A DNA stretch of 64,000 nucleotides from Erythrobacter ani (GTDB taxonomy: Bacteria; Pseudomonadota; Alphaproteobacteria; Sphingomonadales; Sphingomonadaceae): the NCBI RefSeq assembly GCF_019204025.1, contig NZ_JAGSPB010000002.1, positions 1 to 64,000 of the forward strand, written 5' to 3'. Below the pieces are notes generated by a model. That model was not told where the DNA came from. It searched no databases and saw nothing but the letters and a program-made list of their open reading frames with translations. Shown in pieces: positions 2-16,628 of the stretch (positions are counted from its first letter, which is position 1; each line of letters starts with the position of its first letter). The position numbers and the translations under genes are program-made.

Positions 2-3000
2 ACAATCGATCCATCTGGATCGCAAGGTGGGCCGATGGGCGACGGTATCTACCAGGTCACCGTCATCGCCGACGATGGCAATGGCGGCACGGTCAGCAAC
101 ATCGTTCGCTGGACCATCACCAATCCGCCGCCGGTTGCTGCGAACGACACGGCCACCACCGATGAGGACGTGGCCGTTAACATCGATGTGTTGGCGAACG
201 ACACCGATCCGGATGGCGATACGCTGAGCTTGGCTTCGGCCACAGCTCTGAACGGCTCGGCCGTGATCGAGGCCGACGGCACGATCACTTACACGCCTGC
301 CCAGGACTTCAATGGCACGGACACAATCACCTACCAGATCAGCGATGGCGAGGGCGGGGTCGACACAGCGACTGTCACCGTCACGATCAACCCGGTTAAC
401 GATGATCCGACCGTCAGCGCGCAAATCCTCAACCAAGACAACAGCGATGCCGACGTGGTCGCGCTCGATGTATCCGGCAATTTCGAAGATCTTGATGGCG
501 ACACGCTGATCTTTGGCGCGACTGGCCTTCCCCCTGGGCTCAGCATTGATGCCGCCGGTAAAATTACTGGCACAGTCGATCCCTCGGCCTCGCAGGGTGG
601 CCCGGCCGGCAATGGCGTTTACCAAATCACCGTCACCGCAGGTGATGGCAATGGGGGCACGGTCAGTTCAACCTTCTTCTGGACGATTGATAACCCCGCG
701 CCGACCGCTGCGAACGACACGGCCTCGATCGTGGAAGACAACACGGTCATTATCGATGTGCTTGCGAACGACGGTGATCCCGATGGCGACGCGCTGACAG
801 TTATCTCCGCTAACGCCAATAATGGTTCGGTGTTTATCGAGGCCGATGGCACGCTAACCTACACGCCCGATGCTAACTTCAATGGCACCGACACGATCAC
901 ATACCTGATCAGCGACGGTGAAGGCGGCACTTCGACCGCTTTTGTAACTGTTACCGTGTCTGCAGTGAATGACGCACCGGAAACCGACGGTCTGCCGAAC
1001 CTTACCGATGGCAATAACGAGATGATCAACGTGCCACTTGGCGCAGCATTCTTCGATCCCGAAGGCGACGCGATCAGCTACATCATCACCGGGCTGCCCG
1101 ACGGACTGACTTTCGATTCGGCAACTGGCACTGTCTCCGGCACGACCACGGCCACCGCCTCCACCGGTGGCCCGGGCGGGGACGGGATCTACACTGTCAC
1201 GGTCACTGCGAACGATGGCAATGGAGGCGTGGCGTCGACGAGTTTCACCTGGACCATCAACAACCAACCGCCGACCGCTGTGAATGACAGCTTCACGGGC
1301 ACTGAAGATTCACCGCAAATCCTCGACGTGCTAGCGAACGATATCGATCCCGATGGCGACCCGATCACGCCGATCGTGATCACCAGCGCAATCGCGACAA
1401 ACGGCACCGCGCTGGTCAATCCAGACGGTACGATATTGTTCACGCCGGACCCCAATTTTAACGGCGTGGCGACAGTCACTTACACTATCGAGGACGCCAA
1501 CGGTGATCCCGCCACGGCCGTCGCGACGATCAATATCGCAGCAGTCAACGATGCACCGGAAGTTACCCCGTTGCCCGACCGGGCTGATCAGGACGGAGAT
1601 ACGATCACGATCGACGCATCCAGCCTGTTCACCGACGTCGAAGGCGACACGCTGACCTATTCGGTCGCCAATCTGCCCGCCGGCCTTTCGATCAATCCGA
1701 CAACCGGTCTCATCACCGGCACGATCGATTCCAGCGCCAGTCAGTTCAATGGCGGTGTTTATTCATCGGTTATCACGGCGGATGACGGCAATGGCGGCGT
1801 GACCGATGTTATGTTCGTGTGGACTGTCACTAATCCTGGACCGACCGCAGTAGATGACACCGCTTCAACGACCGAAGACGCTGCTTCGGCACCGATCGAT
1901 GTGCTCGCGAATGACATCGACCCGGATAATGACACACTGACGGTCATCTCGGCCAACGCGCCAAACGGCACAGTCGTCATCAATCCCGACAACACGCTTA
2001 CTTATACGCCCGACGCGAACTTCAACGGTACGGACACGATAACCTACCAGATCAGCGACGGTGAAGGCGGCATTTCGACGGCAATGGTCAGCCTAAATGT
2101 CATAGCGGACAATGACGATCCGACCGCGCAGCCGCTCCCTGCGCGCGGCAGCCTTGATGCCGAGGTTGTAAATCTCGACCTCTCGGGCGGGTTCGACGAT
2201 CTCGATAACGACACGCTGACCTTCAGCGCGACCGGTCTGCCAACCGGGCTGAGCATTGATGCCAATGGCGTTGTGATCGGCACTATCGATCGGTCCGCAT
2301 CGCAGGGCGGGCCGGCCGGCGACGGCGTATATTCCGTTACGGTCACCGCCAATGATGGTAATGGCGGCACGGTCAGCACCAGCTTCACTTGGACTGTCAC
2401 CAACCCGGCGCCGACCGCGGTCAATGACACGGCAACGACCAACGAAGATGCACCGGTTAATACCGACGTCCTTGCGAATGACAATGATCCGGACGGCGAT
2501 GGGCTGGCGGTCACGCTCGCGAGCGCTGCCAACGGTACAATAGTGATTGAGGCCGACGGCACGCTGACCTACACGCCGGATACCGATTTCACCGGCACTG
2601 ACACTATAACCTACGAGATCAGCGACGGTGAAGGTGGCACCTCGACCGCTACTTTGACAGTCACTGTCAACGCACAGAACGACGATCCGACTGCCACTCC
2701 TGTGCCTCCGCGCGCCGATGTCGATGGCGCAATGGTAAGTGTTTCGATCGCCAGCAATTTCGATGACGTCGAAGGTGACACGCTCACCTTCAGCGCAACC
2801 GGACTACCAACAGGTCTCTTGATCGATGCGGCGGGCAGTATTACCGGCACGATCGACGCTGCAGCCTCGCAGGGCGGCCCGTTAAACGATGGCTTCTATT
2901 CCGTCACGATAACCGCCGATGACGGCAATGGCGGCAGCGTGTCGACCACGTTTGACTGGACGGTCACCAACCCGGTTCCCGTGGCAGCCGATGACTCGGC

Positions 3001-5407
3001 GACGACCGATGAAGACACTACCGTCAACATCGACGTGCTCGCGAACGACAATGATCCCGATGGTGATCCTCTGACGGTCGTTACTGCAACTGCGGGCAAT
3101 GGCACGGTCACCATCCGGTCTGACGGAACGATCGATTACACGCCCGTCGGGGACTTCATCGGCACCGATACGATCCTCTACACGATCAGCGACGGCAATG
3201 GCGGCACGGCTTCGGCCAGCGTCACGGTCGCGGTCAATCCGGGCAACGATGATCCGATTGCGGCCGATGATACCGCCACGACCGACGAAGATACGTCGGT
3301 CACGATTGCGCCGCTCGCCAATGACAGCGATGTGGATGGCGATCCGCTCACTATCACCAGCGCAACCGCTCCAAACGGCAACGTGACGATCAATCGCGAT
3401 GGCACGGTGACATACACACCAAATCGGGACTTCAACGGCACCGACACGATCACGTATGGGCTTTCGGACGGCAATGGCGGCACCGATATAGCGACAATTG
3501 CCGTGCTAGTTGCACCGATGAATGACGATCCGGTTGCAGTGCCGGACACGGTGACGACGCCCGAAGATACGCCGATCAGGATCCCGGTTCTTACGAATGA
3601 CACTGACGTCGACGGCGATCCGCTGATTATCGCAGCTGCGACTTCGCCCAATGGCACCGTCACCATCAATCCTGATGGTACGATTACGTTCGTGCCTAAC
3701 CCTGATTTCAACGGTCCGACCGCTATCAACTATGCGATCAGCGATGGCATGGGCGGTACAGCCACCGCGACGGTCACGGTAAACGTCAATCCGGTGAACG
3801 ACCCGCCCGTAGGCCAGCTGGACACCGCAACCACCGATGAAGACACGCCGGTGACTATTCCGGTGCTCGCCAACGATAGCGATCTTGACGGCGATCCGCT
3901 GACAGTCGTGTCCGCCAGCGCGCCCAACGGCACAGTGACGATCAATCCCGACGGCACGGTCACCTACACACCCGAACCGAACTTCAGCGGCACAGATACG
4001 ATCACCTACCAGGTGAGCGATGGCATGGGCGGGTTCGACACGGCCACGGCCACTATCACGGTCAACCCGGTCAACGACGCGCCGATTGCTGGCGCCGACG
4101 TGGCGACGGTGGATGAAGACTCGCAAGTTACCATCTCGATCCTCGCCAATGACAGCGATCCCGACGGTGATCCGATCACCGTCACAGATGCGAGCGCGCC
4201 GAACGGCACTGTCACTATCAACCCGGATGGCACGGTCACCTACTCGCCGAATCCTGATTTCTTTGGCACCGATACGATCACCTACCGGGTGAGCGATGGC
4301 AATGGCGGGATTGCAACCGGCACGGTTGATGTCACGGTCAACAACGTTAATGACTTGCCGGCGGATGAGCCGGAGGCAGTGGATGCATTCAGCGGCGCGC
4401 CTACCATCATCGACGTGCTTGAAAATGCCAGCGACCCCGACGGCGATCCGCTCAGCGTTATCATGGCAAGCGTCGATATCGGGAAAGTTTTTATCAATTC
4501 CGACGGCACACTTAGCTACACGCCGCCCGATGGCTTCACTGGTCTCGCAACGATCCTCTATACAATCTCGGACGGAAACGGCGGGTTCGTGAATTCCACT
4601 GCCATCGTGGATGTTTCAGCTGCTGGTGCCGATGTCAGATTTTTGCTGCGCGGAGATCTTGGTACGGGGCCGCTTGATTTTCGTGCTGTCGAGGAGGTGC
4701 TCGACCAATCCAGCAGTTTTGTGACTACACCGCTGATTATTCTCGATGCTGTGAATGGCTTCCGTCCGCTCAGCGGCTTCGGAGCACTTAGTGTCGAACA
4801 ACCTTTGCTTGAAGCCGTAAATGTTATCAGGTCGTTGGATGGCGTTGGTGACTTTGACCGAAGTGGACGTCCGATCGACAGCGTAATGCGTCAGATTGAC
4901 CAAGTTCGCGATTTACGTTTTGGCGCGGACCGGTTGTTCGATCCGCGTTTCGCCGACCTTATTCCTCAATCCTTGACCGGGTTCTCTCTCCGCCAGCTCG
5001 ATGCCGGAAATGATCGAGTGATGATCGATTCGATCGTACGCGCTCGAGTGGTTTACATCGAAATGCGCGATATCGGCGAGAGTGCATCGTCACCCATCGC
5101 CGAATTTCAGCTGCTTACCCGCGACGGTTCGCCGCTCCCCGATTGGATCCGAATCGACCCTCGCGGTTTGGCGATCATTGAGCGCCCGGTTGATTTCGAA
5201 GAATTGCGGCTGATAGTGAGGGCCATCACCGAGGACATTGAAACCATCGATATCCCAATTAGAATTCAAGGTGCGACCGGTGAAATTCAGGCCGACGTGC
5301 CCTTTGATCGATCGTTGATCCGTACGGAAACGCTCAGTGAGATGATGACGCGAGAAAGCTCTGGAACAAGCGATGAAGTCGAGAATTTGCTCGCGGCGTT
5401 CCTTTGA
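2..5407 (+). CDS. Giant cadherin/Ig-like repeat surface adhesin (5' end outside window)
   Basis: This is an open frame with no start inside the window; it reads in from base 2, so only the C-terminal ~1800 residues are present. They are built from at least 11 cadherin-like (Big_9/VCBS-type) modules, recognised by repeated cores such as 'TATTDEDT', 'DVLANDxDPDGD', 'DGTxTYTP' and 'FNGTDTITY'. The first five alternate with putative-Ig (He_PIG/CADG-like) modules carrying 'GLPxGLSID' and 'GTIDxSASQGGP'. The last ~260 residues (from about base 4620) are non-repetitive and contain a CADG-like segment 'DGSPLPDWIRID'. No RTX GGxGxD nonapeptides or LPxTG-like anchor are visible. Asp-rich loops suggest Ca2+ binding. 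The downstream TolC/HlyD/M50 genes suggest export to the cell surface for adhesion or biofilm formation; this role is inferred. Confidence 0.85.
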   Translation, partial: TIDPSGSQGGPMGDGIYQVTVIADDGNGGTVSNIVRWTITNPPPVAANDTATTDEDVAVNIDVLANDTDPDGDTLSLASATALNGSAVIEADGTITYTPAQDFNGTDTITYQISDGEGGVDTATVTVTINPVNDDPTVSAQILNQDNSDADVVALDVSGNFEDLDGDTLIFGATGLPPGLSIDAAGKITGTVDPSASQGGPAGNGVYQITVTAGDGNGGTVSSTFFWTIDNPAPTAANDTASIVEDNTVIIDVLANDGDPDGDALTVISANANNGSVFIEADGTLTYTPDANFNGTDTITYLISDGEGGTSTAFVTVTVSAVNDAPETDGLPNLTDGNNEMINVPLGAAFFDPEGDAISYIITGLPDGLTFDSATGTVSGTTTATASTGGPGGDGIYTVTVTANDGNGGVASTSFTWTINNQPPTAVNDSFTGTEDSPQILDVLANDIDPDGDPITPIVITSAIATNGTALVNPDGTILFTPDPNFNGVATVTYTIEDANGDPATAVATINIAAVNDAPEVTPLPDRADQDGDTITIDASSLFTDVEGDTLTYSVANLPAGLSINPTTGLITGTIDSSASQFNGGVYSSVITADDGNGGVTDVMFVWTVTNPGPTAVDDTASTTEDAASAPIDVLANDIDPDNDTLTVISANAPNGTVVINPDNTLTYTPDANFNGTDTITYQISDGEGGISTAMVSLNVIADNDDPTAQPLPARGSLDAEVVNLDLSGGFDDLDNDTLTFSATGLPTGLSIDANGVVIGTIDRSASQGGPAGDGVYSVTVTANDGNGGTVSTSFTWTVTNPAPTAVNDTATTNEDAPVNTDVLANDNDPDGDGLAVTLASAANGTIVIEADGTLTYTPDTDFTGTDTITYEISDGEGGTSTATLTVTVNAQNDDPTATPVPPRADVDGAMVSVSIASNFDDVEGDTLTFSATGLPTGLLIDAAGSITGTIDAAASQGGPLNDGFYSVTITADDGNGGSVSTTFDWTVTNPVPVAADDSATTDEDTTVNIDVLANDNDPDGDPLTVVTATAGNGTVTIRSDGTIDYTPVGDFIGTDTILYTISDGNGGTASASVTVAVNPGNDDPIAADDTATTDEDTSVTIAPLANDSDVDGDPLTITSATAPNGNVTINRDGTVTYTPNRDFNGTDTITYGLSDGNGGTDIATIAVLVAPMNDDPVAVPDTVTTPEDTPIRIPVLTNDTDVDGDPLIIAAATSPNGTVTINPDGTITFVPNPDFNGPTAINYAISDGMGGTATATVTVNVNPVNDPPVGQLDTATTDEDTPVTIPVLANDSDLDGDPLTVVSASAPNGTVTINPDGTVTYTPEPNFSGTDTITYQVSDGMGGFDTATATITVNPVNDAPIAGADVATVDEDSQVTISILANDSDPDGDPITVTDASAPNGTVTINPDGTVTYSPNPDFFGTDTITYRVSDGNGGIATGTVDVTVNNVNDLPADEPEAVDAFSGAPTIIDVLENASDPDGDPLSVIMASVDIGKVFINSDGTLSYTPPDGFTGLATILYTISDGNGGFVNSTAIVDVSAAGADVRFLLRGDLGTGPLDFRAVEEVLDQSSSFVTTPLIILDAVNGFRPLSGFGALSVEQPLLEAVNVIRSLDGVGDFDRSGRPIDSVMRQIDQVRDLRFGADRLFDPRFADLIPQSLTGFSLRQLDAGNDRVMIDSIVRARVVYIEMRDIGESASSPIAEFQLLTRDGSPLPDWIRIDPRGLAIIERPVDFEELRLIVRAITEDIETIDIPIRIQGATGEIQADVPFDRSLIRTETLSEMMTRESSGTSDEVENLLAAFL
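125..2975 (+). repeat. ~570-bp tandem super-repeat (Big_9 + He_PIG pairs)
   Basis: Cadherin-like module starts recur near bases 125, 700, 1267, 1838, 2408 and 2975, a period of 567-575 bp (about 190 residues). Each unit is one cadherin-like module plus one putative-Ig module. Units differ at many silent sites, so this is an old or diversified array rather than a recent duplication. Confidence 0.75.
2975..4620 (+). repeat. ~276-bp tandem repeat (cadherin-like modules only)
   Basis: From about base 2975 the putative-Ig partner is lost and cadherin-like modules follow each other directly. Starts lie near 2975, 3256, 3532, 3808, 4081 and 4360 (period 273-281 bp, about 92 residues). The last copy (4360-4620) has lost the 'TTDEDT' core and looks degenerate. 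Confidence 0.75.
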
Positions 5408-5434
5408 AGGATATGAACGAATGAAGGTAAGTCA

Positions 5435-6931
5435 GTGAATCAGAGAAGCCCACTTCTCGGCGCATCAATACTCTTACTGAGTGGTTGTGCCACCGTGCCA
5501 GAACCGTTCACGCCGATCGAATTGAACGAGGCAGCTTCGCGCAATTTCGCCGAAGTCGATGCCGAGCAAGAGCCTGTGACGGCTCCTATCGATCTTTACG
5601 AGGCGATGGCTCGAGCCCTCAAATATAATCTTGATTATAAAGTCGAGCTAATGGAAATGGCGTTACGTGAGCGCGAGCTCGATCTGCAGCGATACGATAT
5701 GTTGCCGCAATTGGTCGCAAATGCTGGATATGCCGGGCGGAACAATTTTTCTGGCGCAAGCTCCTTGTCGCTGATTACTCAGCAACAATCACTTGAGCCA
5801 TCGACCTCACAAGAACGCGATCTGTTCACCGCCGATCTCACGCTGAGCTGGGACGTTCTCGACTTTGGTTTGTCCTATGTTCGTGCAAAGCAAGGAGCGG
5901 ACGAGATCCTGATATCTCAGGAGCGCCGGCGCAAGGTTGCCAATCGGGTAATCGAGGACGTGCGGTCGTCTTACTGGCGTGCGGTCAGCGCCGAGCGGTT
6001 GCTGACCAAACTTCAAGAACTTGAAAGCTCGGTCACTACAACACTTGAAAATTCGGAACGCTTGTCTGAACGTCGTCTCTCCGCACCACTCACGGCCCTG
6101 ACTTACCAGAGGGAACTGCTTCAAATACAGTCGCAGATCCGTAAGCTTCAACGCGAACTGGTGGTCGCGAAATCCCAACTTGCCGCGCTAATGAACCTGC
6201 GGCCAGGTACTGAATTCGGTCTCGCATTGCCCGATCGGACGAATCAGCTACCCGCCGTGAGATATGACGGCGAAGACATGATGATGACAGCCTTGCTCAA
6301 TCGCGCTGAGTTGCGCGAAGTGAGCTATCGCCAAAGGATCAACGCGCGCGAGATTGATGCAGCCTTGCTTTCAGCGCTGCCTAGCTTTCGAGGTGTACTT
6401 GGCGTCAATATCGATTCGAACGATTTTCTATTTAATAACGACTGGGTTAATTACGGCGCACGTGCAAGCTGGAATGTTCTCAACCTGTTCCGCTTGCCCG
6501 CTCAAAAGAGAGCTGTGCGCGCTCAAGGCGATCTGCTGCAACAGCGCGAATTGGCGCTGACGATGGCTGTCGTCACGCAGGTCCATGTCGCGCGGGCGCG
6601 CTTCGGTCATTTGAGCGACGAACTAGAAACCGCATCCCGACAGATGAATGTACAAGACAAGATTCTCGACCAGATTCGAGCAGGTCATACGACCGGAGTA
6701 ATGAGCCGACAGACCTTGCTGCGAGAAGAAATGAATACGCTAGTGGCAGAAGTGCAGTACGATATCGCCTATGCTGAAGCGCAGAACGCGTATGCAAACC
6801 TGTTTGCTTCCATGGGCATCGATGAATTCAGCCCCGAAGTGACAGGTCAGGAAGATGTTGCCACGCTCAGAGCGTCACTGGCAAAACTGTGGCAAGAGCG
6901 CGAAGCAGCTGTAAGGCTGTCGGGACAGTGA
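5435..6931 (+). CDS. TolC-family outer-membrane efflux lipoprotein
   Basis: 498-residue protein with a GTG start at 5435 and AAGG about 7 nt upstream. The N-terminus is a lipoprotein signal with lipobox 'LLSGC' (Cys18). The body has two long helical OEP repeats (about 60-270 and 280-470), including 'LSWDVLDFGLSYVRAKQ' and 'ARASWNVLNLFRLPAQKRA', typical of TolC/OprM-type channel proteins. It should form the outer-membrane duct for the exporter encoded by the next three genes. It starts 27 bp after the adhesin stop and ends 3 bp before the adaptor gene, implying one operon. Base composition is somewhat more A+T-rich than in the housekeeping genes further right. Confidence 0.88.
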   Translation: MNQRSPLLGASILLLSGCATVPEPFTPIELNEAASRNFAEVDAEQEPVTAPIDLYEAMARALKYNLDYKVELMEMALRERELDLQRYDMLPQLVANAGYAGRNNFSGASSLSLITQQQSLEPSTSQERDLFTADLTLSWDVLDFGLSYVRAKQGADEILISQERRRKVANRVIEDVRSSYWRAVSAERLLTKLQELESSVTTTLENSERLSERRLSAPLTALTYQRELLQIQSQIRKLQRELVVAKSQLAALMNLRPGTEFGLALPDRTNQLPAVRYDGEDMMMTALLNRAELREVSYRQRINAREIDAALLSALPSFRGVLGVNIDSNDFLFNNDWVNYGARASWNVLNLFRLPAQKRAVRAQGDLLQQRELALTMAVVTQVHVARARFGHLSDELETASRQMNVQDKILDQIRAGHTTGVMSRQTLLREEMNTLVAEVQYDIAYAEAQNAYANLFASMGIDEFSPEVTGQEDVATLRASLAKLWQEREAAVRLSGQ

Positions 6932-6934
6932 AGG

Positions 6935-7858
6935 ATGAGTGAAACCGAAAAGGTGGAGAAAGCAGAAACGCCCAAAGCAAGCGACAGGCGCAAATACGCT
7001 ATCGCAGGAACCGTTGCGATTGGCATACTGGTTGTTTTCACAGCAGCGTTCACTGGAGGCGATGCGACAGAATGGTCAAGCAGCGAACCAAACGACTTCG
7101 CAAATCAGCAAATTGCAGACGTTTCTGAAAAACAGGCGGCGCCTGAGCCCGCTGTCGAACCGGTGTTAGATGCGCGCGGCGTAATCGCCGCAAAAAACGA
7201 GTCAACAATCGCCTCTCGCATGACAGCGCGTATACTTTCGATACCTGTTGGTGAGGGACGGAGTTTCCGTCGGGGCGCGACGCTTGCCACCTTCGACTGC
7301 TCGACGATCCGAGCACAGCTTACAGCGGCGCGTGCAGCAACAACCGCGTACCGAAAAACTCACGAAACCAACGTCGAGCTCGATTCTTATGAAGCCGTCG
7401 GAACAAACGAAGTGGAAGTGTCGAAGGCAAATCTCGGGCAAGCTATTGCGGAAGCCAACGCAATACAGGCACAGCTGAAAGATTGCAGAGTTACAGCTCC
7501 TTTCTCTGGCACAGTCGTTGAGCAGATTGCCAATCGCGGCGAGGTTGCAGGAAGCGGGCAGCCGCTGCTGAAAATTCAAAGCGGCAATGACCTCGAGGCA
7601 GAACTGATTGTTCCCAGTAACTGGCTCAACTGGTTGCGAGCTGGGGCCGAATTCGATTTTGTAATTGACGAAACGGGCGCTGCGATACCGGGGGTTGTCA
7701 CGCAATTAGGTGCCTCGGTTGATCCGGTCAGCAAGACGATCCGGGTAAAGGCCGACATCGATCAAGGCGAAGCATTGGTTCTGCCTGGCATGAGCGGAAC
7801 TGCAGCGTTTGCTACGTCTGAGGCGCAGGTTGATTCGGCGAAGGCGCCAGGCAGATAA
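6935..7858 (+). CDS. HlyD/RND-type periplasmic adaptor protein
   Basis: 307 residues with a single N-terminal membrane anchor (about 24-43, 'AIAGTVAIGILVVFTAAF'). A split biotinyl-lipoyl-like domain follows ('IPVGEGRSFRRGATLATFD' and 'VTAPFSGTVVEQIANRGEV') around a short coiled coil, then a beta-barrel domain. This is the layout of RND/MFP adaptors, shorter than classical HlyD of haemolysin systems. Position between the TolC-like gene and the GAF-HlyD gene suggests it links the inner-membrane parts to the outer-membrane channel. Start chosen at the ATG 3 bp after the upstream stop; the Shine-Dalgarno is poor, so translational coupling is likely. Confidence 0.82.
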   Translation: MSETEKVEKAETPKASDRRKYAIAGTVAIGILVVFTAAFTGGDATEWSSSEPNDFANQQIADVSEKQAAPEPAVEPVLDARGVIAAKNESTIASRMTARILSIPVGEGRSFRRGATLATFDCSTIRAQLTAARAATTAYRKTHETNVELDSYEAVGTNEVEVSKANLGQAIAEANAIQAQLKDCRVTAPFSGTVVEQIANRGEVAGSGQPLLKIQSGNDLEAELIVPSNWLNWLRAGAEFDFVIDETGAAIPGVVTQLGASVDPVSKTIRVKADIDQGEALVLPGMSGTAAFATSEAQVDSAKAPGR

Positions 7859-7859
7859 G

Positions 7860-9248
7860 ATGGCAGCCCCTCTTCCTGAGCCGACAAAGACTCGGCCTCA
7901 GCTGAGCGGCGTGGCGACCGGTGGCAGCTCGGGGGATGCCAAGATGCTCGCGGTTCTGCTTCAGTTCGAGGCCGATATTCGGCGCCAGTCGACTGTTGCC
8001 GAACTGCAATATTTCGTTGCCAACGAAGCACGCGCTATCCTTCCGTACGGCCAGATGTTTGTGTTGCGGCAAGCCACCATTGGCAAAGGCTATACGACTA
8101 AGTGCGTATCCTCGCTGGCGACGGTCGATCCTAACGCGCCGCTGATCGATGCGCTGGAGAAGGCCGTGAGCAACCTTGCGGATAAATTCACCTTGGCAAA
8201 GCCACGCGAATTCGATGCCCAACGCTCGAGACCAGATGAAGCGCTCTCTGATTATCCTTACACGCAAATGTATTGGCAGCCGCTGCTCGATGCAGAGGGT
8301 TCTCCGTTCGCCGGGTTGTTGCTTGCCCGCGAGGAAACCCTGCGGAACGGGGAGAAAATCCGCATCGCGCGAATTGGCGACACGACCGCACACAGTTGGC
8401 TCGCGCTTACCGGCAAGAAACCGGTGCGCCGTCTGCCCGTACTCGACAGCCGAAAGAAAAAATGGATTGCAATCGCTATTGCAGTTGTCCTGCTTTTCCC
8501 GGTGCGTCTGACCGCACTCGCTCCGGCAGAGATCGTTGCTGAACGGCCCTATGTCGTGGCCGCTCCATTTTCCGGCCGCATCGCGTCGGTCGAGGTCACG
8601 CCCAACGCCCCTGTCACCGAAGGGCAGGTGTTGTTGCGCTTCGACGATATACGGCTGACGAACGAGCTCGAATTGGCTAAAGAGCGCTTGGCGGTAGCAC
8701 GTTCTCGGCTTGAGCGTTCGACCAGCTCTGCGTTTGCTGAGCGCGATGAGACTTCCGACATCGCGATCATGCAGGCCGAGGTCGAAGTGGCGCAGGCGGA
8801 GTTTGATTACGCTCGGCAGCTCGCGATTCAATCGACGATCACCGCGCCGCGTGAGGGCATGGCGTTGTTCAGCGATCGCCGCGACTGGGAGGGCCGCGCG
8901 GTCAATGTCGGCGATCCGATTATGCAAGTTGTGAACCCCGCTGAGGTGATGATCCGGATCGACTTGCCCTCTGCCGAACAGATGTCGCTGGAGCGTGGGG
9001 CCAAAGTCAAGATGTGGCTCGATTCGCAGCCCCTCTGGGCAATTGATGGCTTGCTAGAAGCGGCAAGCTACCAAGCCCGCCAAACGCCGGACGGCACCTT
9101 GGCCTTTGCGCTCACGGCAAAGATCGATGGTGCAAACCCGCGCATCGGTTCACGCGGGACAGCGCAGGTATACGGACAGTGGGTGCCGTTCGTCTATTCG
9201 CTGCTGCGTCGGCCGATTTCTGCGCTCCGCCAGTTCGTCGGGATATGA
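7860..9248 (+). CDS. GAF-like domain + membrane span + HlyD-like adaptor
   Basis: 462 residues from the ATG at 7860, one base after the previous stop. An upstream in-frame ATG at 7809 would overlap the preceding gene and adds an unlikely Arg-rich tail. Residues ~25-185 resemble a GAF-type sensory fold ('LQFEADIRRQSTVAELQYFV', 'YPYTQMYWQPLLDAEGSPFA'). One transmembrane helix follows at about 202-218. Residues ~225-440 are HlyD-like: a lipoyl half-motif 'APFSGRIASVEVTPNAPVTE', a coiled-coil hairpin, the second half 'ITAPREGMALF' and a beta-barrel. The cytoplasmic GAF-like part could sense a ligand or dock a partner; that is inference. It overlaps the next gene by ATGA. Confidence 0.75.
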   Translation: MAAPLPEPTKTRPQLSGVATGGSSGDAKMLAVLLQFEADIRRQSTVAELQYFVANEARAILPYGQMFVLRQATIGKGYTTKCVSSLATVDPNAPLIDALEKAVSNLADKFTLAKPREFDAQRSRPDEALSDYPYTQMYWQPLLDAEGSPFAGLLLAREETLRNGEKIRIARIGDTTAHSWLALTGKKPVRRLPVLDSRKKKWIAIAIAVVLLFPVRLTALAPAEIVAERPYVVAAPFSGRIASVEVTPNAPVTEGQVLLRFDDIRLTNELELAKERLAVARSRLERSTSSAFAERDETSDIAIMQAEVEVAQAEFDYARQLAIQSTITAPREGMALFSDRRDWEGRAVNVGDPIMQVVNPAEVMIRIDLPSAEQMSLERGAKVKMWLDSQPLWAIDGLLEAASYQARQTPDGTLAFALTAKIDGANPRIGSRGTAQVYGQWVPFVYSLLRRPISALRQFVGI

Positions 9249-11404
9249 CCTCCGCCGCTATCCCGATCGAGCTGCCAGAGGCTGCCAAGCCGCCACCGAT
9301 CCCGGCGCTGCGACAGGAATTGCGGATCGAACCGGGTGCTTCGCTCGTGAATGGAGCGCCCAGCTGGACCCTGTTCGACCCCGTTCGGCATTCCTTTTTC
9401 CAGCTCGGTCGGGTCGAGTTCTTGATTCTCTCTCATTGGGCTCGCGGCGACTTTGTGACGATTGGCTACGAACTTGAACGCGAAGGGCTGGAGAGCGATG
9501 AGGCAAACGACGCCTTCAATCGGGTCATCGAATTTGCTGCGACTAATGGCCTGACCGTCGGTCCGGTTGGACAAGAGACTGTCGCGGCCTTTACCGAGCA
9601 GCATGCGCGCGGCAAGAAGGCGGCGTGGAAATGGTTGCTAGATAACTACCTGTTTATCCGGATCCCGCTAGTCAAACCGGCGCGGTTTCTGGAGGGGACA
9701 ATCGAGCACGTCCGCCCGCTCTGGTCGGTGCATAGTCTCGTTTTCTTTTCGGTCCTCGCGAGTACCAGCCTCTTGCTTGTGTCGCGCCAGTGGGATGTAT
9801 TTGTTGCTTCGTTTCTGTACTTTTTCAGCTGGCAGGGCTTGATCGCATACGGGCTCGGCCTGTTCGTGATAAAGATCCTGCACGAGCTTGGCCATGCCTA
9901 CACGGCGACCCGATACGGTTGCCGGATCCCGACGATGGGCGTGAGCTTCCTGGTCATGATGCCGGTACTCTACACTGACACGACTGCAGCCTGGCGGCTT
10001 AAATCGCGCAAGCAGCGCCTCGCTATCGATTGCGCAGGTGTTGCGACCGAGCTGATTGTCGCAAGCATTGCGACAATGGCCTGGGTGCTATTACCTGACG
10101 GAATACTCCGCAGCGTCGCCTTCATCCTAGCGACCACAAGCTGGGTGATGAGTCTGTTCGTCAACCTCAACCCGTTCATGCGGTTCGACGGGTACTACGT
10201 GCTGGCCGATCTGCTTAACGTACCAAACCTTCAGCCGCGCGCGTTCGCCCTTGGCAGGTGGAAAATGCGCGAATGGCTGTTCTCGGTTGGGGACGCTGCG
10301 CCCGAAGAAGTGCCGAAGAAGCTGCGTCGCGGCATGATCTTCTATGCTTATGGGACTTGGATCTACCGGCTGTTCCTGTTTACCGGGATCGCGATCCTCG
10401 TTTACAATGTTTTCTTCCAGCCGCTAGGCCTGATCCTCGCCGCAGTCGAGATGGCGGTGTTTGTGGGGCGCCCGATTTTCGTCGAATTGCGCGTCTGGTG
10501 GGCGGAACGCGAACGAATCATTCGGGGGCGTCGTGGCGCAACTTGGCTCTGGGTCGGGGGAGCCTTGCTTCTGCTCGCATTCCTGCCGCTAGACCGCCAT
10601 GTTAGCGGATATGCTGTGCTCACGCCGGTCGGTGCTGCCCCAATCGTCTCCGGAGAACCTGCGCGCGTTACGAGGGTAATCGTTCAGAATGGCCAGCGCG
10701 TTTCGGTCGGCGATCCGATTATTGAGTTGGTTGCGCCCGAACTCGAAGCTCAGGCCGCGAAGACCAAGGTCCGTATCGCGCAGCTCCGCTTACAGATGGG
10801 ACGCGCCATTTCCAGCGAAGACGATCGGTCCAACCGTACTGTGATCGAGCGCGAGTTGGCGCGCGAGACCGACGCGCTGGCAGGCATGGAACGCCGCGCC
10901 GACAAGCTGATCCTTCGCGCCGAGGTGAGTGGCATAGTGTCCGACCTCGATGCATTAATGCATCGAGGTCGCTGGATCGGCGGTGAAGAAGTTATTGCGC
11001 ATATCGTGACGCCGTCCGATTATGATGTGCAGGCCTACGTCTCCGAGGACGATATCTGGCGCGTCAAGCAGGGTGCTTTGGCTACTTTCGTGGCGTCCGA
11101 TGCTGGCGGCCCATCGCGCTCGGCAAAGCTGATTGAAGTTTCATCAAGCGCGATTGAGCGACTAGAGCAACCGATCCTTGCATCCACCAATGGTGGACCG
11201 ATTGCGGTCGAGGAAATGGGTGAGGAACTCGCACCCCGCGAGGGGCTTTACCGTGTTCGTCTGATTGCGGAAAAGGGGACGCTGAGTGGCCATAAACACC
11301 AAATCCAGCTCGTGCCGGGCATCGTCCAAATCCGCACGGATGGGCGCTCGTTTGCCAGCTGGGCAGCAACGCAGATCGCTCGAATGGTCCGCAGAATCGT
11401 GTGA
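9245..11404 (+). CDS. M50-family site-2-protease-like membrane protein fused to HlyD-like adaptor
   Basis: 719 residues from the ATG at 9245, which overlaps the upstream TGA. A cytoplasmic N-terminal region (~1-150) precedes a polytopic membrane domain (~160-430). This carries the zinc protease motif HELGH (H213, E214, H217) and the second motif NPFMRFD (N309, P310, D315), as in M50 'peptide zinc metalloprotease' proteins. After another span (~436-453) comes a HlyD-like arm: 'VIVQNGQRVSVGDPIIELVA', a coiled coil, 'LRAEVSGIVSDLDALMHRG' and a barrel. All zinc ligands are present, so it may be an active intramembrane protease. It may process or export the adhesin encoded upstream. Similar M50-HlyD fusions occur beside cadherin-repeat proteins in other proteobacteria, but their mechanism is poorly defined. 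Confidence 0.8.
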   Translation: MTSAAIPIELPEAAKPPPIPALRQELRIEPGASLVNGAPSWTLFDPVRHSFFQLGRVEFLILSHWARGDFVTIGYELEREGLESDEANDAFNRVIEFAATNGLTVGPVGQETVAAFTEQHARGKKAAWKWLLDNYLFIRIPLVKPARFLEGTIEHVRPLWSVHSLVFFSVLASTSLLLVSRQWDVFVASFLYFFSWQGLIAYGLGLFVIKILHELGHAYTATRYGCRIPTMGVSFLVMMPVLYTDTTAAWRLKSRKQRLAIDCAGVATELIVASIATMAWVLLPDGILRSVAFILATTSWVMSLFVNLNPFMRFDGYYVLADLLNVPNLQPRAFALGRWKMREWLFSVGDAAPEEVPKKLRRGMIFYAYGTWIYRLFLFTGIAILVYNVFFQPLGLILAAVEMAVFVGRPIFVELRVWWAERERIIRGRRGATWLWVGGALLLLAFLPLDRHVSGYAVLTPVGAAPIVSGEPARVTRVIVQNGQRVSVGDPIIELVAPELEAQAAKTKVRIAQLRLQMGRAISSEDDRSNRTVIERELARETDALAGMERRADKLILRAEVSGIVSDLDALMHRGRWIGGEEVIAHIVTPSDYDVQAYVSEDDIWRVKQGALATFVASDAGGPSRSAKLIEVSSSAIERLEQPILASTNGGPIAVEEMGEELAPREGLYRVRLIAEKGTLSGHKHQIQLVPGIVQIRTDGRSFASWAATQIARMVRRIV

Positions 11405-11809: not shown

Positions 11810-12481
11810 TCATGCAAAGTCTCCGATAACATCGAGATTAGTCTGCTGTGAAGCGTTCCCAAACTCGATGTTTTTCAGCTTGAAGCGCTCATCCAGAAGT
11901 AATTGGGCAAGTGATTCTCGAGTCAGTCGTTTCGCAAATCGAAGACCAGCGCGCTTTCCGTCAGACCAGCGGATCGACACAGAACCGAATTCGAGGCCGC
12001 AGAACCCGATTGTCATCAAGGCGCCAGGTGCGAGCCATTTCGAAGTTCGTATGCGCATTCCGCCCAGGGAAATGTTTTCCACCTTAGCGGTGTGCTTCTC
12101 GTCTCTAATCCAGTAGTCCGCCTGCGCTTCGGACGGGACGCGGACAGATCTTGGCGGATACACTGCGGGAGTCTTAGGATCATGATCCATATTCTCGACG
12201 CCGCACGTATTTGATTTGTGCCACACAATCTTGGCATAAATGCGTAAGTTGGATTCCCAGAAATAGCTTATTTTGTCGCCAGGAGAAAAATTCCCTTCGA
12301 CCTCTATAAGTGCACCGCGATTAGAGAAGTTTCTGATCAGGCCCATGGTAACCCGGTCGGACGCGATCACGCAGCAAGGGCGGTATGTTGCCTGATGACG
12401 TCGTTCGTTTCGGCGTTCGCCGCCACGTCCCTCATAAGCGAGGCCCTTCGCTGAAATTTGCTCTGCTAGTATCGTCATCAT
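11810..12481 (-). CDS. Tandem PilZ-domain protein (probable c-di-GMP receptor)
   Basis: 223 residues from the ATG at 12481. GGAGG (complement of 12486-12490) sits 4 nt upstream of this ATG and 7 nt upstream of a second ATG at 12478; a GTG/ATG further out lacks such a site. The first PilZ-like domain has an Arg cluster 'RRNERR' (RxxxR) followed by 'NFSNRG' (NxSxxG), the two motifs that bind cyclic di-GMP. The second has 'NISLGG' but no clear RxxxR. No signal peptide or span, so it is cytoplasmic. Next to an adhesin export operon, it plausibly couples c-di-GMP level to surface attachment (inference). Confidence 0.75.
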   Translation of the reverse strand: MMTILAEQISAKGLAYEGRGGERRNERRHQATYRPCCVIASDRVTMGLIRNFSNRGALIEVEGNFSPGDKISYFWESNLRIYAKIVWHKSNTCGVENMDHDPKTPAVYPPRSVRVPSEAQADYWIRDEKHTAKVENISLGGMRIRTSKWLAPGALMTIGFCGLEFGSVSIRWSDGKRAGLRFAKRLTRESLAQLLLDERFKLKNIEFGNASQQTNLDVIGDFA

Positions 12482-12782
12482 CAGACCTCCGGTTGGGTTT
12501 CGTTCGTGAAACTTCACAATCCCTCAGCTCGCTGGTGCATCGCTGGGGACGAACCAAAGAATATTTATCACTGGTCCTGCTGGTAAGTTCCAGACGGTGT
12601 CTGAAACGTCTGAACGGCCGCCACCTTCACAAAACCTTAAGTTACATATGGCCGTGTAACCCTGTAACTGTGTCGGAAATTCGCGGCTTCCGCTCCAGTT
12701 TGAGAAGCTTCAGCGCAGCCGATGCGTTAACAAATATTGAATCTGAGAGAGCAGAGTCTAACAACTTTTTAGGGATGCCATC
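12482..12782. promoter_or_regulatory. Divergent regulatory region between PilZ and membrane-regulator genes
   Basis: 300 bp with promoters for both flanking divergent genes expected here. Visible symmetric sites are CAGAC-GGT-GTCTG at 12591-12603 (also CAGACG...CGTCTG to 12612) and the GTTACA/TGTAAC cluster at 12641-12668. I see no open frame of interest. Confidence 0.45.
12641..12668. promoter_or_regulatory. Candidate operator: GTTACA-N8-TGTAAC plus third half-site
   Basis: GTTACA (12641-12646) and TGTAAC (12655-12660) form a perfect inverted repeat; another TGTAAC follows at 12663-12668 in direct orientation. It lies about 115 bp upstream of the membrane-anchored regulator gene and may be its own binding site. 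No experimental support; inferred from symmetry only. Confidence 0.4.
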
Positions 12783-14825: not shown

Positions 14826-16628
14826 ATGGTTACGGAATTGATCTTACCGACGAAACGGTGCGCCATCTATACCCGCAAAAGCACGAACAAGCGCCTCGAT
14901 CACGATGTGAATTCGCTAGTCACCCAGCGCGAAGTCAGCAGTGCTTATATCAGAAGCCAGCAATACAAGGGCTGGGTCGAACTGCCTAACCGCTATGACG
15001 ATGGTGGCCATTCAGGCAGCGGCCTAGAGCGGCCAGGGCTCACCAGGCTCATGCGGGACATAGAAGCTGGCGATATTGACGTTGTGGTAGTTTACAAGAT
15101 TGATCGGCTCACACGAAGCCTGGCGGACTTCATCCGGCTAATCGAGATTTTTGACAGACGCGATATTGCGCTCGTGTCGATCTCGCAGGCTTTCGACACA
15201 TCAAACAGCATGGGGCGTATGATCCTCAACGTGTTACTCACTTTCTCGCAATTCGAGCGAGAGTTGATTGCCGAACGCGTGCGGGATAGCGTTCGGACGC
15301 GAAAGCGACATGGGAAGATCCACGGAGGTCTGCCTCCGTTTGGCTATGTCGCCGCACCAGATGGTCTCAGGATCGATGATCGCGAAGCCGAGATCGTTCG
15401 CTTTATCTTCGAAGAATTTCGACGAACGAAGCGCTACACTCAGGTCATGACGGCGGTACGCGAGCGCGGCCTCTGCAGTTCGGTTAAATATTCGCCGCGC
15501 GGTAAGTCGCGCGGCGGAACACCGATTTCACCAAGCACTGTCTATGGAATTGTCCAGAACCCAATATATGTCGGCGAGATACGAGGTCACGATCAAAATT
15601 ATGCTGGCGAACACGAGCCGTTGATATCACGGGAAATCTGGGAGGAGGCACAATCGATCTGCCAAGCGCGCAAGAGGCGAAAGCCCGATTGCCGCGATAC
15701 TAGCCACTTCTTGGCCGGGCTTTTGTGGGACGATTTGGGCCGCCATATGCGGCTCGATCTCAAATGGAAGAGAAACAAATTCTACAAAACCTATGTATCG
15801 AGCAACGCGATGTGGTCGCAAAAGCTCTTTATTAGACAGTACCGTTCCAGCGCTGACGAGCTCGATGCGATAGTTCTCGCGTCGGTCGCCGAATTCCTAT
15901 GCGATCGCATCAAGCTCAGGAAGGCGCTGAAACGATTGGGGCTCTCTGGCGAGGAACTAGAGGCCTTGGCCGAGAAGGGGTCGGCTACATCCGATCGCCT
16001 ATTGTCGACCCCGAAGTCGCACCTACACGAGCTTTTCAAGGCAATTTTTTATCGGATTGAGCTTGGCGAGGACCAAGTCTCGATCGCATTTCGCACTCTC
16101 GAATTGCGCCGCTATCTCGAATGGACGAGCGAAATGAGCTTTCGCGGGCGTCCGGCAGATTGGCCGTGTAGTAGCGGGCGCTATGAACATGTTGTTGCCG
16201 TAAGGGCAATAAGTGCTGAGCGCTGGCCCTCCCTTCACATAAAGCCGCGACAAGCGCTTTGCGTAGGCACACCTGATAAGAAGCTAATCGACCTTATCCG
16301 CAGCGCTCGCAAGGCGCAGCGTCTCGTGGAAGAGAATCGAGAGTTGGGCCTCGAAGCACTTGCGAAGATTCAAGGTTGCCGTACTGCGCAATTCGCGCGT
16401 CTGGTGCGGCTCAATTATTTGGCGCCGGATATCGTCACTGCAGTATTCGATGGCACCCAACCACCGGGCCTCAGCAGAAAGGTGCTATTGAATTCCAATG
16501 TGCCGACTGATTGGGCGGTGCAGAGAAAGCTCTACGGATTTCCGCAACCTGAACGCACCATCAGCCCACGAAATCTATTCGGTCGCGGAATGTGGCCGAG
16601 CGCTCCGGATAGGATTGCTAAGCAGTGA
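14826..16628 (+). CDS. Large serine recombinase (resolvase/invertase family), Cys-less ribbon type
   Basis: 600 residues from the ATG at 14826, with GGAG 7 nt upstream. N-terminal resolvase domain has 'CAIYTRKST' with the catalytic Ser19, 'YKIDRLTRS' and 'FSQFERELIAERVRDSVRTR'. The Recombinase domain follows ('PPFGYVAAPDGLRID', 'TPISPSTVYGIVQNPIYVGE'). The zinc-ribbon region 'FLAGLLWDDLGRHMRLDLKW' lacks the usual Cys pairs, as in a known proteobacterial subgroup. The C-terminal HTH-like end 'LAPDIVTAVFDGTQPPGLS' is intact. It should catalyse site-specific integration or excision of DNA through a Ser-DNA intermediate. It stands alone, without phage structural or transposon genes in view. Confidence 0.9.
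   Translation: MVTELILPTKRCAIYTRKSTNKRLDHDVNSLVTQREVSSAYIRSQQYKGWVELPNRYDDGGHSGSGLERPGLTRLMRDIEAGDIDVVVVYKIDRLTRSLADFIRLIEIFDRRDIALVSISQAFDTSNSMGRMILNVLLTFSQFERELIAERVRDSVRTRKRHGKIHGGLPPFGYVAAPDGLRIDDREAEIVRFIFEEFRRTKRYTQVMTAVRERGLCSSVKYSPRGKSRGGTPISPSTVYGIVQNPIYVGEIRGHDQNYAGEHEPLISREIWEEAQSICQARKRRKPDCRDTSHFLAGLLWDDLGRHMRLDLKWKRNKFYKTYVSSNAMWSQKLFIRQYRSSADELDAIVLASVAEFLCDRIKLRKALKRLGLSGEELEALAEKGSATSDRLLSTPKSHLHELFKAIFYRIELGEDQVSIAFRTLELRRYLEWTSEMSFRGRPADWPCSSGRYEHVVAVRAISAERWPSLHIKPRQALCVGTPDKKLIDLIRSARKAQRLVEENRELGLEALAKIQGCRTAQFARLVRLNYLAPDIVTAVFDGTQPPGLSRKVLLNSNVPTDWAVQRKLYGFPQPERTISPRNLFGRGMWPSAPDRIAKQ

Follow-up and report, generated by a model that had tools for sequence, protein, structure and literature searches.

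The first genes of an Erythrobacter ani contig appear to encode a machine that exports giant surface proteins by a route of its own. The window, that is, the whole stretch of 64,000 nucleotides that was analysed (G000:C2:1-64000), begins at the end of contig C2, which truncates a giant adhesin gene at position 1. It carries five genes on the plus strand: the 3' part of the adhesin gene, an OEP channel, a short HlyD adaptor, a GAF-HlyD protein and an M50-HlyD fusion. In our reading, to which a probability of about 0.68 can be given, this block is a machine for the export and processing of giant leader-bearing proteins, guided by a RiPP recognition element (RRE; RiPPs are ribosomally synthesized and post-translationally modified peptides), and is not a type I secretion system. 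The evidence that carries this reading is a conserved N-terminal motif of the giants, the pairing and linkage of this motif with the machine, the predicted folds and conserved residues of M50-HlyD, and a SecA-like gene in a sister branch.

The leader motif and its pairing with M50-HlyD

An N-terminal half with matching repeats is found where contig C4 begins (L019:1-4608:-). It begins MVGIATKKGLGSQAHIIPLEPRMMFDAAG, followed by DUF4347 (PF14252), and no hydrophobic signal peptide was seen by eye at this N terminus. The ends of C4 and C2 have no exact overlap (the longest common stretch is 29 bases), and repeats may be absent from the assembly between them. We infer that the two pieces belong to one adhesin because the repeats are shared and because the relative G009, with the same gene order, has the adhesin as a single open frame of 4971 aa.

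The motif of the C4 half is LEPRMMFDAAG, a variant of NCBI's LEPR-XLL. The NCBIfam model NF012209 (LEPR-8K) scores 15.2 bits on this adhesin in the cut peptide and 16.6 bits in the genome search, or 17 with neighbours included, for a cut-off of 17. Among 65 distinct stretches the motif columns hold L in 65, E in 65, P in 32 or Q in 17, R in 65, F in 59, D in 63, G in 33 or A in 32, and A in 62; a T stands six columns past the motif aspartate in 51 of the 65. The leader is approximately A-L-E-(P/Q)-R-x-M-F-D-(G/A)-A. Only L, E and R, together with three more loosely defined columns, were set by the selection pattern, so the remaining conserved columns are independent support. Compared with the LEPR-XLL domain proteins, which belong to the same N-terminal motif family, the window-type motif is a variant with FD(G/A)A that scores close to the cut-off, whereas the sister branch has an LLSAD type and its giants exceed the cut-off. 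Genome G002, from the same genus, has a block with an M50-HlyD of 28% identity next to a giant that starts LEDRVLLSAD and in whose first 3000 aa no Pfam family was matched. Motif-bearing frames can be very long, reaching 19,427 aa. A Vibrio LEPR-XLL protein of about 8000 aa has been mentioned previously, and the accessible part of that paper names no partner machine (PMC10868602).

The pairing of motif and machine can be followed in a panel of 397 genomes of the phylum. Of these, 87 have a match to the M50-HlyD profile, or 84 after leaving out the weak, fusion-less G180, G295 and G339, which places the machine in about a fifth of the sampled genomes; it is also present in Nitrospirota. NF012209, an NCBI-made model, matches 91 of the 397 and is found in frames of at least 900 aa in 65 genomes, 64 of them with M50-HlyD (64 of 87 M50-profile genomes when the three weak ones are counted), while in the other 19 NF012209-positive genomes without M50-HlyD all frames are short. 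A5, a profile made for the window-type motif, matches 70 of the 397, and NF012209 or A5 is found in 83 of the 84 fusion genomes versus 2 of the 313 others (G088 and G440, both borderline). Because A5 is partly circular, a further motif profile, A6, was built without Nitrospirota rows; in 148 Nitrospirota genomes it finds 20 with the motif, and all 20 also have M50-HlyD. At the genus level, 38 of 48 fusion genera have long-frame NF012209, against none of the 183 other genera. Conservation of the block away from giants, a possibility raised in an earlier note on this DNA, was not seen, as the figure of 83 in 84 indicates.

That the motif proteins are the substrates of the block is, in our estimate, very likely. 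One could instead suppose an efflux or peptide-export pump that adjoins giant genes by chance, given that efflux is the best-known setting of the adaptor and OEP families and that the M50 part resembles RiPP maturation proteases. This idea is hardly credible, since motif and machine pair almost one to one in two phyla, the giants differ in their bodies, and further motif proteins are encoded away from the block within the same genomes.

The association can also be seen at individual loci. Context was taken from 140 loci in two sets, neither of them random: a first set of 60 of 117 places and a named-organism set of the best 80 of 525. The named set has GAF-HlyD at 77, HlyD at 66, OEP at 65 and M50 at 78 of its 80 loci; in the first set, where some loci end at contig ends and the OEP profile is weak for distant channels, the corresponding figures are 57, 48, 26 and 53 of 60. 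The motif is present at 61 of 74 loci (22 of 29 plus 39 of 45) that have a visible-start long or motif-bearing open reading frame (ORF), a count that admitted motif-bearing ORFs of at least 150 aa, which favours the motif. At the other 13, visible-start long ORFs lack it: opposite-strand ORFs overlap the long ORF at L121, L124, L150 and L163, the long ORFs of L110, L111, L114, L135, L162, L199 and L215 are taken for other genes, judged by their first residues, L183 contains unknown residues and L219 is a repeat fragment. A chance origin of the motif was rejected, as only 3 of 586 other visible-start ORFs (earlier annotation of the first set plus own and related contigs) carry it, and all three are cut or split giants. 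Carriers in the named set, again limited to the best 80 of 525, range over Erythrobacter, Azospirillum, Rhizobium, Pseudomonas, Pectobacterium, Nitrospira and a Campylobacteraceae metagenome-assembled genome.

Leader recognition and processing

The N terminus of M50-HlyD fold-matches an RRE solved with leader peptides. The Foldseek matches listed were adaptor folds. The PqqD model at E up to 1 matches 30 of 60 relatives. In the protease part, all of the 84 aligned M50-HlyD proteins keep H213, E214, H217, N309 and D315, and the HELGH and NPFMRFD motifs are intact, just as the earlier note had read them. Models of RiPP proteases also recognise the family: the daptide M50 model matches 60 of 60 relatives and the epipeptide model 55 of 60. 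The window protein itself is below the NCBIfam cut-offs (daptide, 141.3 versus 300 bits; epipeptide, 36.5 versus 225 bits), and no NCBIfam model is above its own cut-off on the window M50-HlyD or GAF-HlyD. The block can be compared to RiPP leader recognition and to the M50 leader peptidases of daptides and epipeptides (EpeP/YydH), with which it shares an RRE-type fold and a related M50 core. In the accessible part of one paper, EpeP is thought to both cut and export, and a coupling of leader removal to export is proposed for it (PMC10885120). The differences are that the substrates here are thousands of residues long, that the protease is fused to an adaptor arm and that the scores fall short of the NCBIfam cut-offs.

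DUF4347 may be a second processing element. Its His-Gly...Cys residues are invariant in 32 of 32 sequences, and with E values up to 10 allowed, 9 of these have a Peptidase_C80 match (best 5.5e-4). A profile search against solved structures found one DUF4347 chain, 9qpe (E 9.2e-6), with the remaining matches weak and mostly designed barrels. DUF4347 looks like a caspase-like peptidase.

From these parts we infer a scheme of binding, cleavage, route, motor and transport direction. The giant would be synthesised without an evident hydrophobic signal peptide, and in the cytoplasm the RRE/PqqD-like domain of M50-HlyD would bind the giant's leader, a step in which we have fair confidence. The chain would be threaded across the inner membrane at an M50-HlyD/GAF-HlyD complex, where the M50 site probably removes the leader, and the HlyD arms and OEP channel would form the path through the periplasm and outer membrane. 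DUF4347, next after the leader, would process the protein, probably itself, for release or fixing.

Alternatively, the block could be a release or anchoring device: the adhesin would be exported by another route, such as Sec, and the RRE-M50-HlyD protein would hold its N terminus in the inner membrane and cut to free it. M50 proteases work inside membranes, DUF4347 and M50 are both placed at the N-terminal end, and the OEP and adaptors could hold a retained adhesin, all of which would suit such a device. However, no Sec-type signal peptide was evident by eye in the giants' N termini seen, and a channel with up to three adaptors exceeds the needs of release, which makes this alternative unlikely. 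The LEPR-type motif, DUF4347 and the leader-binding fold on M50-HlyD argue for leader recognition and processing over a generic release protease. The earlier suggestion that M50 serves the export or release of this adhesin stands in that the block tracks giants, and gives way in the nature of the protease's task.

The export route and its motor

Type I secretion is the known route that most needs to be weighed. LapA, for instance, is a giant adhesin exported in this way. As far as the accessible part of the source on SiiE goes, type I secretion of giant adhesins is like the block in its giant Ig/cadherin-type substrate, TolC-type channel and HlyD-type adaptor; in contrast, the block has no linked ABC ATPase, no RTX match, a conserved N-terminal motif and M50/GAF-adaptor fusions. 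The system could still be type I secretion in disguise, with an unlinked ABC exporter and a C-terminal signal, the block supplying channel and adaptors and M50 only trimming or releasing. Besides the TolC/HlyD-type parts of the block, this idea can draw on C4, where HlyD/HlyB-type genes form an exporter pair at 15-19 kb upstream of the adhesin start (L023:1575-5269, minus strand; HlyB by sequence reading). It can also draw on the giants' last 40-50 residues, which are partly alike (F-x-E-Q-L ... L-L-A-A-L): this tail is found in 8-13 of 36 held-out giants versus 2-7 of 1202 control ORFs, the split halves containing relatives. But the exporter on C4 comes with an RTX-repeat gene of its own, which lies about 10 kb upstream of the adhesin start (L019:14305-19080, minus strand), and an IS1595-type transposase sits between that start and the RTX and exporter genes. 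RTX repeats (HemolysinCabind) were matched in neither adhesin piece, the machine is tracked by an N-terminal motif and not by a pump, and a SecA-like gene is found where an ABC gene would be expected. ABC-labelled ORFs occur at only 16 of the 140 context loci (6 and 10 in the two sets), in varying places, and no ABC pump is a constant part of the system. Overall, the disguised type I system is improbable, and the earlier view that the block, with no ABC gene in it and no RTX match in the adhesin pieces, is not a standard type I system can be upheld.

Other candidate motors were tried and rejected. An ABC exporter of the operon's own, lying upstream, had been named earlier as something to look for, and none is shared: no ABC ORF was found in G018 within 15 kb on the upstream side, nor over the first 15 kb of C4. 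ABC genes do occur on C4 at 15-19 kb (the pair with its own RTX gene) and in G009, where an ABC-2 permease/M1-peptidase gene stands at 1.6 kb with an ABC ATPase behind it (1.6-6 kb), but the two differ in kind. Another linked ATPase in the window's branch was sought by clustering unlabelled neighbours, and the clusters listed include no constant ATPase family; their sequences read as sensor/regulator genes, LysR-type regulators, dehydrogenases and shadow ORFs.

The sister branch has a motor candidate of another kind. A 600-726 aa protein near M50-HlyD is common to 12 loci of the first set or related to it, and the two of these that were scanned have SecA_DEAD, SecA_PP_bind and a SecA P-loop domain. 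Among 45 chosen machine genomes, 13 have a second SecA (frames mostly about 655-762 aa, one of 1370), within about 2 kb of the M50-HlyD match in 12 of the 13, and all 13 have an NF012209 match of at least 21 bits. The other 32 genomes, including G009 and G018, have a single SecA; five of these match NF012209 (G070, G224, G335, G410 and G428), and in two of them our own profile nonetheless labelled SecA, at L116 (G070) and L128 (G428). No SecA label was found in the named set of the best 80 of 525. A tree was made from 70 M50-HlyD proteins, taken from loci of known type with the sister type set mainly by linked SecA; in it, the 13 SecA-linked loci and one S-type motif locus form a single 14-tip clade (support 1.0), with one change of type, whereas 500 shuffles needed at least 10. 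The sister-branch loci L033, L119, L124, L126, L133 and L134, one of which was scanned, share a SapC-like gene.

The earlier description of an ATPase-less cassette thus holds for the window's branch and fails for the sister branch, which encodes a SecA-like ATPase by M50-HlyD. It is reasonably likely that this linked SecA-type motor drives the sister branch; for the window's branch, the housekeeping SecA is a tentative first guess. Accessory Sec (SecA2) exports giant adhesins and is alike in the sister branch only, where a second SecA would serve giant surface proteins; it differs from the present system in that the sister branch's second SecA is next to M50-HlyD and the window's branch has no second SecA.

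Several points weigh against RRE-guided export. A5 was built partly from genomes later scanned, hence its circularity, and the motif was not found in 3 of 23 Nitrospirota fusion genomes (the partial hits G592 and G599 are left out; counting both gives 20 of 25 with the motif). The Pfam PqqD model has no match in the window M50-HlyD and 14 close relatives, and DUF4347 was not matched in 14 of 68 motif ORFs, one of the 14 being a chance hit. As regards the motor, context loci and neighbour clustering give no motor gene linked to the block in the window's branch, and the window genome has one SecA only. Finally, the partly shared C-terminal tail could be a C-terminal, type-I-like signal.

Taken as a whole, the proposal is of export of its own kind, for which we see an even chance: a RiPP-like leader would be read by an RRE fused to M50 and an adaptor arm, a TolC-type conduit would be powered by a SecA-type motor instead of an ABC, RND or MFS pump (by a dedicated SecA in the LLSAD branch and by the housekeeping one in the FD(G/A)A branch), and a caspase-like domain would finish the product. 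The parts are known families; judged from computation alone, the system lacks the linked ABC transporter that defines type I secretion. In the open-access literature, subscription papers and preprints being outside its scope, we found neither the pairing, nor the motif's leader role, nor the union of RRE, M50, adaptor, channel and SecA, nor a link of LEPR-XLL or DUF4347 with M50-HlyD. If correct, this proposal would give some of the largest bacterial proteins a further way out of the cell and extend RiPP-style leader recognition to giant surface proteins. It would also account for two orphan annotations, namely the purpose of the LEPR-XLL motif and the role of the M50-HlyD fusion. The sister branch also suggests that a SecA-type motor can be coupled with a TolC-type conduit.

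Layout and surroundings of the block

Profile matches bear out the gene order and families given by the earlier note (TolC-like channel, short RND-type adaptor, M50-HlyD fusion), and its GAF-like label is right, as model residues 25-187 of GAF-HlyD match GAF domains. The block was also described as gapless, which does not hold throughout: gaps of 27 and 3 bases separate adhesin from OEP and OEP from HlyD, the GAF-HlyD ATG is one base past the HlyD stop, and the M50-HlyD start overlaps the GAF-HlyD end (ATGA). An M50-HlyD start at 9245 fits the 719-aa homologs; a 741-aa ORF from 9179 is the longer reading.

Table 1. Coordinates of the block and its elements in the window
Feature	Position	Strand	Remarks
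Giant adhesin with Big_9/cadherin/He_PIG repeats, C-terminal part, putative substrate	2..5407	+	5' end open; start on contig C4
Adhesin C-terminal tail, partly common to other giants, possible second signal	5339..5404	+	suggestive only
OEP/TolC-type outer-membrane channel	5435..6931	+	PF02321, E 1.5e-35
Short HlyD/RND-type adaptor	6935..7858	+	RND_mfp 104.8 bits, cut-off 94.9
GAF-HlyD protein: GAF domain (~7932-8420), one membrane helix, HlyD arm	7860..9248	+	
M50-HlyD fusion: predicted RRE domain, intramembrane metalloprotease, HlyD arm	9245..11404	+	
RRE/PqqD-like fold, putatively leader-binding	9296..9571	+	residues 18-109 of the 719-aa protein
HELGH zinc motif	9881..9895	+	M50-HlyD residues 213-217
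NPxxxxD motif, NPFMRFD	10169..10189	+	M50-HlyD residues 309-315

A second giant Big_9/cadherin gene is present far from the block (L022:8994-20000, at about 620 kb of G000:C2), with a frame of 4242 aa in which neither NF012209 nor A5 matches a leader motif. Behind the block, a PilZ-domain gene is found both in the window (11810-12517, minus strand) and in G018 (L032:7808-8509, minus strand), a possible link to cyclic di-GMP. A serine recombinase lies downstream (window 14826-16628) and the IS1595-type transposase upstream of the adhesin is at L019:6666-7601. With these flanks, and with M50-HlyD in 4 of 37 genomes of the genus, the locus looks island-like.

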